Source of the DNA: Brachybacterium sp. Z12
GTDB lineage: Bacteria > Actinomycetota > Actinomycetes > Actinomycetales > Dermabacteraceae
Assembly: GCF_014400405.1 (NCBI RefSeq)
Contig: NZ_CP060496.1
Span: forward strand, 2,604,001 to 2,668,000
Direction of reading: 5' to 3'
DNA length: 64,000 bases
A program made the translations under genes and the position numbers. The notes beneath the pieces were generated by a model. It was not told the DNA's origin. It saw only the letters and a program-made list of their open reading frames with translations, and ran no database searches. Position 1 is the stretch's first letter. The number at the start of each line of letters is the position of its first letter. This document shows positions 29,978 to 57,763 of the stretch, piece by piece.

Positions 29978-30022
29978 GAACTGGGACATGTCGAACTGGG
30001 ACGCGCCGAGCTGGGACACGCC
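29978..30022. repeat. 15-bp tandem repeat, three units
   Basis: Units GAACTGGGACATGTC, GAACTGGGACGCGCC and GAGCTGGGACACGCC follow each other at 29978, 29993 and 30008. The last unit runs into the outer arm (GACACGCC) of the palindromic element that begins at 30015. Confidence 0.85.
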
Positions 30023-30091
30023 GCCCGAGAACACCGAAACCTTCCAGATATGGAAGCTATCGGTGTTCTCGGCGCGCTACGACGGCGTGTC
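30015..30091. repeat. 77-bp nested palindromic repeat, copy A
   Basis: Outer arms GACACGCCG (30015-30023) and CGGCGTGTC (30083-30091) enclose inner arms CGAGAACACCGA (30026-30037) and TCGGTGTTCTCG (30060-30071), which in turn enclose CTTCCA-gata-TGGAAG. All three arm pairs are perfect. Copies B and C share length, arms and spacing but differ in the centre. Confidence 0.85.
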
Positions 30092-30237
30092 TGGCGCATC
30101 CGACCAGCCCGCTACGACGACGTGCCTGACTCACCCGACCAACACCGGGCCAACACAGGACGAAACACGAGCTGCCGACAGGCCCGCTCTCCACGGCCAC
30201 ACGCCCGCGCCGGCCATCCGTCCCCCACTGCTGCTGG

Positions 30238-30313
30238 GACACGCCGCCCGACAACACCGAACCCTGCCGTAAACGGGGAGATCGGTGTTCTCGATGAACT
30301 GCACCGGCGTGGC
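30238..30313. repeat. 76-bp nested palindromic repeat, copy B
   Basis: Outer arm GACACGCCG (30238-30246), inner arms CGACAACACCGA (30249-30260) and TCGGTGTTCTCG (30282-30293) with one mismatch, outer right arm CGGCGTGGC (30305-30313) with one mismatch. The central sequence differs from copy A. It lies 146 bases downstream of copy A in the same gap. Confidence 0.8.
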
Positions 30314-30446
30314 GAGGCGGTACCGCATGGCCCCACACCGTGGCGGGGCCATGTCCGGCAGCCGCGCGAGGTGGCCGCGGGGCCCGGTCCGGGGTAGCCC
30401 GGCAAGGTGTCCGCGATGCCTGAGCGCGACTGAACTCCGTGACTCT

Positions 30447-30500
30447 GGTCCCGCTCCCGCTCCCGGTCCCGCATCCGGTCCCGCTCCCGGTCCCGCTCCC
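30447..30500. repeat. 12-bp tandem repeat, about four units
   Basis: GGTCCCGCTCCC is repeated at 30447, 30465 (GGTCCCGCATCC), 30477 and 30489, with one extra GCTCCC half-unit after the first. It is non-coding and borders the rpsQ terminator. Confidence 0.85.
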
Positions 30501-30515
30501 GCGACCCGGGACAGC

Positions 30516-30555
30516 AGAAGGGCCGGCCCTCCCCGTGGGGAGGACCGGCCCTTCT
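30516..30555 (-). terminator. Terminator of the S10 operon (after rpsQ)
   Basis: AGAAGGGCCGGcCCTCCCC pairs with GGGGAGGaCCGGCCCTTCT around a two-base loop, with one mismatch in an 18-19-bp stem, 34 bases beyond the rpsQ stop. It shows that the S10 block ends here instead of running on into rplN. Confidence 0.85.
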
Positions 30556-30588
30556 CAGGCAAGCGGTGCGGTCACTGGGACCGCCCGA

Positions 30589-30915
30589 TCACTTGGCGCG
30601 CTCGAGGATCTCGACCAGACGCCACCGCTTGGTGGCGGAGGTCGGACGGGTCTCCATGACGAGGACACGGTCGCCGGTACCGGCAGCGTTCTCCTCGTCA
30701 TGAGCCTTGAAGCGGCTCGTCTTGGTCGTGACCTTGCCGTAGCGCGTGTGCTTGACACGCTCTTCAACCTCGATCACGACGGTCTTGTCCATCTTGTCGG
30801 AGACCACGAACCCGCGGAGGGTCTTGCGGTAGGGGCGCTCGCTGGAGGACGCGTGCGCGCCTTCCTTGTCGAGCTCCTCGACAGCCGGGGTCTCGGCCTT
30901 GGTGTTGTCAGTCAT
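30589..30915 (-). CDS. rpsQ: 30S ribosomal protein S17
   Basis: 108 residues; S17 is an OB-fold protein binding the 5' domain of 16S rRNA. The core RPYRKTLRGFVVSDKMDKTVVIEVEERVKHTRYGK, FKAHDEENAAGTGDRVLVMETRP and TKRWRLVEILERAK is standard. The first 30 residues are an acidic extension (EELDKEGAHASS). ATG 30915 with AGGAA upstream was preferred over an upstream in-frame start that overlaps rpmC. Confidence 0.95.
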   Translation of the reverse strand: MTDNTKAETPAVEELDKEGAHASSSERPYRKTLRGFVVSDKMDKTVVIEVEERVKHTRYGKVTTKTSRFKAHDEENAAGTGDRVLVMETRPTSATKRWRLVEILERAK

Positions 30916-30935
30916 CTCTGTTCCTCGCTTCGCGG

Positions 30936-55807: not shown

Positions 55808-55954
55808 ACGTCGGCCGCTATATGCCTGGCGCAGAGGTTCTGACGTCGCTTCCTGCCCGTCTGGCTCGACCGGCCCGATGGTGTGTGCACACCGGGCACG
55901 TGCGGCAGGAACAGCTCCGTACGACGAAAATGATGAAGGGAAATCCTCTCAGAG

Positions 55955-56131
55955 TCAAGCAGGCAGGGCTCTGGCCGGAGTGTCGGGCCACGTCAGGGGC
56001 GATTTCAGCGGATTCGTGGCGGCGGGGCGCGAGCCGCCGCCCCTCCCCCGCCACCGCAGCGCCCGAGGAGCCTGCGCGAGAGCTGCCGACACTCCCACCA
56101 TCACCAGCATCGCCACGATGATCCACGTCAC
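55955..56131 (-). CDS. Possible small membrane protein
   Basis: A 58-residue reading frame from GTG 56131 to TGA 55955 starts TWIIVAMLVMVGVSAALAQ, a good single membrane helix, followed by a basic segment (APRALRWRGRGGG) and a Pro/Ala tail. G or C is found at nearly all third codon positions of the helix, as in real genes here. GAGG lies four bases before the GTG. It sits alone between the rplL terminator and the rpoB promoter. No family is recognised, and the tail is weakly coding, so it may be chance. Confidence 0.35.
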   Translation of the reverse strand: MTWIIVAMLVMVGVSAALAQAPRALRWRGRGGGSRPAATNPLKSPLTWPDTPARALPA

Positions 56132-56196
56132 CACGCCTCATCGCGCGCTCCGCGGGCGCCCCCGACAACATGCTGGGCAGCGGGAAGAGGGCATGA

Positions 56197-56232
56197 CGAA
56201 GGGCCGCCCCGCAGATGCGGGACGGCCCTTCG
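56197..56232 (-). terminator. Terminator of the rplJ-rplL operon
   Basis: CGAAGGGCCGcCCCGCA pairs with TGCGGGaCGGCCCTTCG around a two-base loop, with one mismatch in 17 bp, 54 bases beyond the rplL stop. Confidence 0.85.
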
Positions 56233-56285
56233 AAGGCAGTGCGACTGCCGTCAGGTGAGGCGCACGCCGAGGCGGGCGCCGGAGA

Positions 56286-56675
56286 TCACTTGACGGAAGC
56301 GGTCGCGCCGGCCTCCTCGAGCTTGGCCTTGGCAGCCTCGGCGTCTTCCTTCTTGACACCCTCGAGGACAGCCTTGGGCGCCTCGTCGACGAGCGCCTTG
56401 GCCTCCTTCAGGCCGAGCGAGGTCAGACCGCGCACCTCCTTGATGACGGCGATCTTCGCGGAACCGGCCGACTCGAGGATGACGTCGAACTCGGTCTGCT
56501 CCTCCTCCTCGGCGGCCTCGGCACCAGCGGCGGCGCCACCGGCAGCGGCGACGGCCACGGGGGCGGCAGCGGTGACGTCGAAGACCTCTTCGAACTCCTT
56601 CACGAACTCAGAGAGCTCGATGAGGGACATCTCCTTGAAAGCTTCGATGAGCTCGTCCTTGCTGAGCTTTGCCAT
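56286..56675 (-). CDS. rplL: 50S ribosomal protein L7/L12
   Basis: 129 residues; the stalk protein that recruits translational GTPases. The N-terminal dimerisation part MAKLSKDELIEAFKEMSLIELSEFVKEFEEVF, an Ala-rich hinge, and the globular EFDVILESAGSAKIAVIKEVRGLTSLGLKEAKALVDEAPKAV, in parts, are typical. It follows rplJ after 146 bases. Confidence 0.97.
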   Translation of the reverse strand: MAKLSKDELIEAFKEMSLIELSEFVKEFEEVFDVTAAAPVAVAAAGGAAAGAEAAEEEEQTEFDVILESAGSAKIAVIKEVRGLTSLGLKEAKALVDEAPKAVLEGVKKEDAEAAKAKLEEAGATASVK

Positions 56676-56821
56676 GATGGCATTCCTTCCTTTAGGCGGG
56701 ACCTGCGTCCCTGCGGTGTAGAGCGGCGCACACGCGCCTGGTCATGCGATCCGGTCGCCCTTCTCAGGGCATCCGGGGACAGCGCTGAGGCTGTGCGTGC
56801 GAAAGCCGCGAGCTCGAGAGC

Positions 56822-57340
56822 TCAGGCGGCTTCCTGCTTTGCCCGCAGCGCGTCCACGGTGCGTGCTGCCTTCGACAGCGGTGCCGCGAACGTAGCGGCG
56901 GCCTTGGACATCGACGCCTTCATAGCGCCAGCGGCCTTGGCCAGCAGGACCTCGCGGGACTCGAGGTCCGCGAGCTTCTGGACGTCCTGTTCCGAGAGCA
57001 GCTTGCCCTCGAAGTAGCCGGACTTGACCACGAGCTTGTCGTGGGTCTTGGCGAAGTCACGCAGAGCCTTCGCAGGCTCCACCGGCTCACCCTTGATGAA
57101 CGCGATAGCGGTCGGACCGCTGAGCGTGCCATCGAAGGCGTCGATGCCGGCCTCGCGGGCGGCGATCTCCGTGAGCGTGTTCTTCACCACGGCGTAGGTC
57201 GTCTCGGAGCCCAGTGCGCGACGGAGCTCCTTGAGCTCCTCCACGCTGAGCCCGCGATACTCGGTGATGACAGCAGCGTCGGATGCACGGAACAGGTCCG
57301 CGATCTCGGCGACAGCGCCCACCTTTTCGGGGTTCGCCAT
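56822..57340 (-). CDS. rplJ: 50S ribosomal protein L10
   Basis: 172 residues; L10 anchors the L7/L12 stalk and represses its own operon. MANPEKVGAVAEIADLFRASDAAVITEYRGLSVEELKELRRAL, VVKNTLTEIAAREAG, GPTAIAFIKGEPVEPAKALRDFAK and the C-terminal L12-binding helix (FAAPLSKAARTVDALRAKQEAA) are present. ATG 57340 has GGAAGGAGG upstream and matches the family start; the open frame continues upstream into the leader. Confidence 0.96.
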   Translation of the reverse strand: MANPEKVGAVAEIADLFRASDAAVITEYRGLSVEELKELRRALGSETTYAVVKNTLTEIAAREAGIDAFDGTLSGPTAIAFIKGEPVEPAKALRDFAKTHDKLVVKSGYFEGKLLSEQDVQKLADLESREVLLAKAAGAMKASMSKAAATFAAPLSKAARTVDALRAKQEAA

Positions 57341-57577
57341 GGCCCTCCTTCCAGAGGTCTCTCGCCACCGGGTGAAGAAGTCCGAGAAACAGGAAAGGCC
57401 TCGACACGCAAGTGTCGAGGCCTCGATCGCACGAACGCTCTGCCACGAGGGCACCGGCGGGCCGGACGAGCGCGACCATGCGAGGGTCGCTTCTTCACCT
57501 GCGCAGGCCATCCCGTAGGGGATTTCTTCGGTCGCTCTCGGGGTCGAGCGCGACAACCGGCGGTCTTCGGTTCCACC
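57341..57577 (-). promoter_or_regulatory. L10 leader RNA of the rplJ-rplL operon
   Basis: On the minus strand AACCGAAGACCGCCGGTTGTCGC, then GACCGAAGAAATCCCCTACGGGATGG and CCTGCGCAGGTGAAG (57490-57575, in parts) resemble the L10(L12)4-binding leader of bacteria. Further down, AGGCCTCGACAC-ttgc-GTGTCGAGGCCT (57396-57423) is a perfect 12-bp hairpin that may act in attenuation. L10 feedback on such leaders is established elsewhere; here it is inferred from motif and position. Confidence 0.65.
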
Positions 57578-57686
57578 AGAGTAGACCAGGGGACGGTACC
57601 GGCGCCATGCCGAGGGCGGCGTCGTGCGTCACATTCCGTGCGGCCGGCGGCAGCGTGGAGCGCCGCCTCGGCACACCGCGCCGCGT

Positions 57687-57763
57687 GACACGCCGCCCCG
57701 TGCCGTCGAGTTCACCGGTATCCCCCGCAGCCGAGAGATATCGGTGCTTTCGATCGGCGTGTC
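57687..57763. repeat. 77-bp nested palindromic repeat, copy C
   Basis: Outer arms GACACGCCG (57687-57695) and CGGCGTGTC (57755-57763) are perfect. The inner pair is CGAGTTCACCGgTAT and ATATCGGTGCTTTCG, with mismatches. A 9-base change follows the left outer arm compared with copies A and B, while total length (77) is kept. Confidence 0.75.

Follow-up and report, generated by a model that had tools for sequence, protein, structure and literature searches.

GACACGC-armed palindromes past gene ends form a dispersed element family in Brachybacterium

The sections consulted of two published accounts describe repetitive extragenic palindromes (REPs) as units of 20–40 bp with an unpaired GTAG or CGTC tag (PMC3733652), place REP palindromes and bacterial interspersed mosaic elements (BIMEs) past gene ends with a preference for convergent and tandem gaps (PMC3733652, PMC1525189), and report that gyrase, IHF and DNA polymerase I bind REPs (PMC1525189). 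Repeated palindromes at gene ends are often ascribed to transposition. In operator-like sites with helical phasing, two half-sites are kept on one face of the helix. Our analysis concerns an element of Brachybacterium sp. Z12, three copies of which lie near ribosomal protein genes in a stretch of 64,000 nucleotides (contig NZ_CP060496.1, positions 2,604,001 to 2,668,000; hereafter the window, whose own numbering is used for all coordinates). The element consists of a long palindrome between two outer arms, GACACGC and GCGTGTC, and its three copies had been described in an original prediction made from the letters of this DNA.

Like REPs and BIMEs, the Brachybacterium palindromes are intergenic, lie past gene ends and occupy mostly convergent and tandem gaps; however, the unit is longer (68–89 bp, against the 20–40 bp given for REPs in the sections consulted), its hairpin is of near-fixed length, its arms are phase-locked, no GTAG or CGTC tag was seen by eye among the conserved columns of 48 aligned copies, and no match to the Y1_Tnp domain was found in 38 genomes of the genus. 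Miniature inverted-repeat transposable elements (MITEs) are similarly short, dispersed and bounded by terminal inverted repeats (here GACACGC/GCGTGTC), but the Brachybacterium element keeps its positions and orientation across species at many sites, and no parent was found in searches for PF01797 and for half-elements; moreover, recent MITE copies share internal sequence throughout, whereas positions 4–11 of the long spacer are only 0.22–0.29 identical between loci here. A strong, stable hairpin between convergent stop codons is common to our element and bidirectional intrinsic terminators, which differ from it in that the Brachybacterium element has conserved sequence, near-fixed length, outer arms and a genome-wide concert of stem sequence. 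The two arms may also be likened to phased operator half-sites on one helix face, although here the half-sites enclose a long palindrome of its own. By analogy, its role would be like that of the BIME and REP sites found where convergent genes end, though no mobility system is known for it; the portions of the literature searched held no description of this element. Tentatively, and with less than even confidence, we interpret it as a family of gene-end elements in which the palindrome is likely a two-way terminator and the arms likely dock a putative DNA-binding protein.

The three window copies and their parts are as follows.

30015–30091, + strand: copy 1, whole element, 77 bp, spacing class 4,13
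30015–30021, + strand: copy 1, outer arm GACACGC
30026–30071, + strand: copy 1, hairpin of 46 nt, CGAGAACACCGA..TCGGTGTTCTCG
30085–30091, + strand: copy 1, outer arm GCGTGTC, 13 nt off the hairpin
30238–30313, + strand: copy 2, whole element, 76 bp, spacing class 4,13, probably a local duplicate of copy 1
30249–30293, + strand: copy 2, hairpin of 45 nt
30307–30313, + strand: copy 2, outer arm GCGTGGC, one mismatch
57687–57763, − strand: copy 3, whole element, 77 bp, opposite orientation, spacing class 4,13 on the − strand
57707–57752, − strand: copy 3, hairpin of 46 nt

The predicted coordinates, lengths and outer arms were confirmed, apart from the single mismatch in the 3' arm of copy 2, and the inner arms CACCGA/TCGGTG held in general, copy 3 reading CACCGG/TCGGTG. 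The fixed spacing claimed for the inner arms did not hold as given, since the inner hairpin lies off-centre (4 nt from one arm and 13 nt from the other) and copy 3 runs in the opposite orientation; it is valid once copy 3 is turned round. Forward alignment of copy 3 with copies 1 and 2 required long gaps and was rejected, while the reversed copy aligned over 77 columns at the cost of a single 1-nt gap, nine bases at the left end being the same in all copies. Two occurrences of the inner motif AACACCGA-N5-30-ATCGGTGTT were found in the window and none in 100 shuffles, and folding of copies 1, 2 and 3 stood at z of about −8.7, −3.2 and −5.0 against shuffles. Copies 1 and 2 have in common a 47-nt upstream repeat (77% identity), so that they are probably a local duplication, whereas copy 3 and the other places are dispersed.

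The covariance-model search that had been proposed was run with a model of the three window copies, copy 3 reversed (R1), and a second model of 48 copies (R2); 126 candidates were scored per genome (40 in the order-wide draw), and copy counts are thus lower bounds. In the genome of origin (G000; one contig, 3.51 Mb, 85.7% estimated completeness), R1 gave 29 strand matches in 15 distinct places at E ≤ 0.1, which disposes of the earlier concern that there might be no further copies. At the same threshold R1 matched 18 of 24 genomes of the genus and one of 14 others, the latter weakly. With R2, matches at E ≤ 0.01 were obtained in 22 of the 38 genus genomes; the other 16 had none at that threshold, four of them having one R1 match each at E ≤ 0.1. 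An order-wide draw of 119 genomes (at least eight in the genus) added two outside the genus with a single weak match each. Viral contigs yielded no exact match to the hairpin pattern, and no match to copy 1 extended by 10 bases on each side was found among 50,697 phage and 72,556 plasmid records. The three copies belong to a dispersed Brachybacterium family. A looser pattern, CMCCGAT-N6-32-ATCGGKG, matched 38 of 38 genomes with many apparent chance hits in coding sequence, its reversed control was too weak, and it was not used; nor do we claim a trend with distance from the origin, copies being fewer far from dnaA in G000 and G014 (Kolmogorov–Smirnov p = 0.11 and 0.06). One G014 locus (L160, 1484–2014) holds the element in tandem, with a 151-bp period and four near-identical copies, and element flanks often carry short tandem repeats that iterate the arm motif (L121, L148, L124, L143).

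The family has a near-fixed architecture. A palindrome scan that allowed 44–47 nt, with a slight preference for 46, found a hairpin length of 46 nt in 113 of 125 cases, a few of the 125 hairpins being noise. On the 201 sides where GACACGC was read toward the hairpin with at most one mismatch, the arm lay 4 nt away in 72, 13 nt in 49, 14 nt in 52 and elsewhere in 28; spacings of 4 or 13/14 nt yield units of 68 bp (4+4), 76–79 bp (4+13/14) and 86–89 bp (13/14+13/14). A hairpin-blind search of eight genomes, meant to avoid model bias, asked for exact GACACGC-N48-78-GCGTGTC with no hairpin required and returned 30 matches, against 4 for the reversed pattern; all except one had a length within 68, 76–79 or 86–89 bp (9 of the 31 possible lengths), two of the 30 being non-members (87 bp in G045, 69 bp in G000) and one G006 element being counted twice through an extra arm. 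In one G014 match of 89 bp, the exact arm lies at 25 nt and an arm with one mismatch at 4 nt. Arm pairs 4–34 nt apart were not in excess (5, against 11 reversed). The spacings differ by steps of 9–10 bp, close to a full turn of the helix, a pattern suggesting that both arms are recognised in double-stranded DNA from a single face.

Selection on the folded unit, as originally proposed, was supported by covariation, by hairpins better kept than their flanks in close relatives, and by an architecture common to orthologous sites. The inner helix shows Watson–Crick covariation, with 14 of 19 pairs changed on both sides and a covariation score of 0.321, against 0.134 in shuffled and at most 0.123 in slid alignments. 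Nine orthologous hairpins of G000 and its close relatives G006 and G045 had a mean identity of 0.90, their 45-nt flanks 0.65 and shuffled flanks 0.61. When different loci within a genome were compared, in five genomes with 3 to 25 asymmetric copies apiece, identity was 0.64–0.73 in hairpins, 0.84–0.96 in arms (partly since rows with poor arms were left out) and 0.26–0.40 in flanks; the long spacer keeps its length, with the low identity at positions 4–11 given above. Recent copies would be expected to share their spacers, yet the long spacers differ, so these are not copied.

Sites are also held in common between species. Grouping by flanking proteins placed 71 of 116 scanned elements in 12 clusters common to at least two genomes, at least four of the 116 being noise (inside rplN in G000 and G014; L138 at 1686; L242 at 3102). 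Among 40 members hand-picked from 10 of these 12 clusters, a selection that favours our interpretation, spacing class and orientation agreed in 64 of 74 pairs, where 20,000 permutations, which ignored relatedness, averaged 20 and never exceeded 42; orientation alone agreed in 16 of 16. Left out of the 40 were a many-copy locus of mixed classes beside a gene for a 283-aa protein, the two identical rplA copies, any second copy within a gap, and those members whose arms were ambiguous (G001, G002, G007 and, at two sites, G023). Class was taken from the best arm at 3–5 or 11–15 nt, hence every element was classed; members kept with an arm of 2–3 mismatches were G004, G018, G023 and one each of G006, G045, G048 and G050. 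At the window sites, copies 1 and 2 have two G014 counterparts in the same gap and orientation, and copy 3 has a weak G014 counterpart past rplA on the same strand (39.5 bits) and a still weaker one in G016. Among 30 rplA loci (the gene being found in 36 genomes), those of G000, G014 and G016 were the only matches at E ≤ 0.01. The rpsQ gap in G002 and four named Brachybacterium loci is 96–242 bp long, with no element and, by eye, a terminator-like hairpin in each; a fifth locus (L039) has another gene in place of the gap. Nearer relatives of G000 are thus without the window copies, unlike G014. The identity of the rplA–rplJ copy between G000 and G006 contig C715 (77/77) was dropped as evidence because C715 is nearly the same species (99% over 110 RplA residues) and most of the gap is identical too. 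G006 contigs C62 and C715 carry two different rplA copies (97% and 99%), and this bin therefore probably mixes two strains or species.

The stems change in concert within genomes. Among 43 hairpins at conserved sites (G001 and G002 excluded; clades drawn by us on a tree in which 8 of the 27 inner branches had good support), same-genome paralogues were 0.746 identical, cross-clade orthologues 0.628 and cross-clade non-orthologues 0.589, and the paralogue–orthologue difference was reached in 0 of 5000 permutations. At stem pair 16, for instance, all 17 hairpins from the G000 clade have C-G and 12 of the 14 from the G014 clade have G-C, and by eye TTCCAC stands in a stem of 11/11 hairpin-blind matches of G014 and of 0/17 other members. 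Between close relatives, orthologues (0.90) are more alike than paralogues (0.76, 0.74). Since copying of whole elements would bring the spacers along, we interpret the concert of the stems as co-evolution with a putative stem reader; templated repair within palindromes might make each stem perfect but would not bring different loci into agreement. Orthologous sites keep class and orientation while their stems shift from genome to genome, so the co-evolution of a protein with dozens of sites can be asked about directly, and the genus offers several natural stem dialects.

Elements lie past gene ends. The 92 element gaps comprised 53 convergent, 36 tandem and 3 divergent, against 24, 91 and 41 among 156 background gaps (those of at least 100 bp from the window plus 360 kb of G002), and in tandem gaps 35 of 42 elements were closer to the upstream stop than to the downstream start. 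The element hairpin was the strongest in its gap in 38/53 convergent, 21/36 tandem and 0/3 divergent cases. Recurrent neighbours were a Crp-family regulator and a metallo-hydrolase; a phosphotransferase system (PTS) enzyme I-like protein and HPr; an FMN reductase and an RNA methyltransferase; and a PRK-family kinase and a phosphoglucomutase-like gene. At the pts site, a related hairpin with degenerate arms is the sole strong one in a 101-bp gap of G002 and a 137-bp gap of G018. The surroundings of the window copies are as follows.

29497–29907, + strand: frame of 136 aa, convergent with rpsQ; no Pfam match; relatives across many Actinobacteria
30516–30555, − strand: terminator-like hairpin just past rpsQ, separate from the element; counterparts in element-free relatives
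30589–30915, − strand: rpsQ (Ribosomal_S17)
56822–57340, − strand: rplJ (Ribosomal_L10), downstream of copy 3
57940–57975, − strand: terminator-like hairpin just past rplA, separate from the element; counterparts by eye in G002, G006 contig C62 and G045
58006–58725, − strand: rplA (Ribosomal_L1), upstream of copy 3

The position of copies 1 and 2 in the rpsQ–rplN gap was correct as originally described, but this gap also holds the opposite-strand 136-aa frame; the copies lie between that frame and rpsQ and thus between convergent genes. The best matches of the frame were in Brachybacterium, and the best 80 of 501 were Actinobacteria by title, 44–74% identical.

With extra hairpins at the window sites and a sole strong hairpin elsewhere, the interpretation that we favour is a gene-end site that is likely a terminator hairpin and likely a dock for a putative protein. 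The palindrome, usually of 46 bp, would work as a two-way transcription terminator, halting transcripts that arrive from either side in gaps with no other terminator, while the two GACACGC arms, stepped by about one helical turn, would dock a putative DNA-binding protein that also reads the palindrome. In that case the duplex itself would be under selection, exerted by a protein that holds the two arms from one helix face, and the concerted change of the stems would be co-evolution with this putative arm-binding protein. A wider version, possible but doubtful, is a chromosome-wide recognition system of Brachybacterium, in which a putative complex on two invariant GACACGC half-sites, on one helix face around a palindrome of clade-specific dialect that changes together with the protein, would mark gene ends, chiefly convergent ones.

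Several observations count against the gene-end terminator and docking interpretation. The genes rpsQ and rplA each have their own terminator-like hairpin nearer the gene, common to element-free relatives, so that the window copies are not needed as terminators there, and a stronger hairpin stood elsewhere in 15/53 convergent, 15/36 tandem and 3/3 divergent gaps. The finding of just 15 places in a 3.5-Mb genome, with 16 of 38 genus genomes unmatched, argues against an essential role. The placement statistic draws on gaps of several species that include orthologues and are not independent; G000 alone has 12 gaps, 7 convergent, 4 tandem and 1 divergent. The arm-spacing sample of the palindrome scan was drawn with models mostly made from 4,13 copies. 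Two of five covariation measures were barely above shuffles (18 pairs changed on both sides where shuffles gave 16.0, and 49 further pair types where they gave 44.2), and the first three bases of the long spacer showed partial conservation, at 0.58–0.78, in four of the five genomes. On the transcribed strand in tandem gaps, G-U mispairs numbered 45 and A-C mispairs 28 (p = 0.06), a hint of selection at the RNA level. Finally, 45 of the 116 scanned elements (25 in G014) had no counterpart among the fetched loci, a gain or loss for which this interpretation does not account.

Among the alternatives, ordinary bidirectional intrinsic terminators of convergent genes, with sequence shared by happenstance and incidental arms, seem unlikely to us, although they are the most serious competitor. 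They would fit the convergent placement, the closeness to stop codons and the strongest-hairpin rank in 38 of 53 convergent gaps, as well as the G002 crp and pts sites, where a related hairpin has no arms at ≤ 1 mismatch. If both strands are read, the near-balance of G-U and A-C (59 against 53 in 60 asymmetric copies) is also expected. The arm sequence and spacing, the near-fixed 46-nt length and the within-genome concert of the stems are nevertheless left unexplained, and the window copies adjoin other terminator-like hairpins at rpsQ and rplA.

We regard as distinctly improbable a miniature mobile element, MITE-like or REP-like, with GACACGC terminal repeats, spread in trans by a transposase. 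In its favour are the dispersal of copies bounded by terminal inverted repeats, copy numbers patchy across species and the 45 elements without counterpart; terminal repeats recognised by two domains of a transposase would likewise fit arms that stay constant while the inner part diverges, and local multiplication does occur, as in copies 1 and 2 and the 151-bp spaced copies of G014. The transposition part of the original prediction nonetheless gained no support. A RAYT-like transposase was sought through PF01797 (the RAYT/IS200 domain, Y1_Tnp), which was absent from all 38 genus genomes, with a control positive in 5 of 14, in a search confined to this transposase family. There were no solitary ends at ≤ 2 mismatches in G000 or G006, the 13 half-element matches in the former and 5 in the latter all lying within known elements, and none among the matches inspected in G014; beyond those examined, G045 had one match at 2 mismatches, and at 3 mismatches there were about 10 in G000 and others in G006, G045 and G014. 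Half-elements 7 kb apart in G014 were considered as transposon ends and rejected, the model finding three whole elements there (42, 37.5 and 25 bits); the genes between were viewed as translations. The lack of phage, plasmid or viral-contig matches, the uncopied long spacers and the site, orientation and class common to several species also stand against mobility. No consistent target-site duplication was visible by eye in the listed flanks; intergenic flanks, such as those of the G002 gaps, hardly align, so that target duplications could not be judged.

A structured RNA, whether an mRNA 3'-end stabiliser, an attenuator or a small RNA, is very unlikely in our estimation. Strong hairpins with covariation and the G-U surplus in tandem gaps would agree with it, but the balance of G-U and A-C over the 60 asymmetric copies shows no overall strand bias and hence favours no one strand as RNA, and among asymmetric elements in tandem gaps 8 share the direction of the genes and 14 run the opposite way. 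Elements had no match over the gathering score in Rfam 15, where copies 1 and 2, the two searched in that way, had none at E ≤ 1. Chance or purely local duplication, to which the probable local duplication of copies 1 and 2 might have pointed, is hardly credible, being refuted by the absence of the motif from 100 shuffles and by copies dispersed over 15 places of the genome.

In a scan of the window with Rfam, the sole match over the gathering score was a tRNA. Upstream of rplJ, at 57397–57422, a palindrome GGCCTCGACACGCAAGTGTCGAGGCC contains GACACGC and is present in G002 and G045 too; although without an Rfam match, it is possibly part of an L10 leader. In G002, a different long palindrome of the form TGTGCGCTGTGCACCG..CACCGGTGCACAGCGCACA, perhaps another gene-end family, occurs in two convergent gaps (L213 and L227) whose orthologues in G000 are element sites, at crp and the PRK-family kinase.

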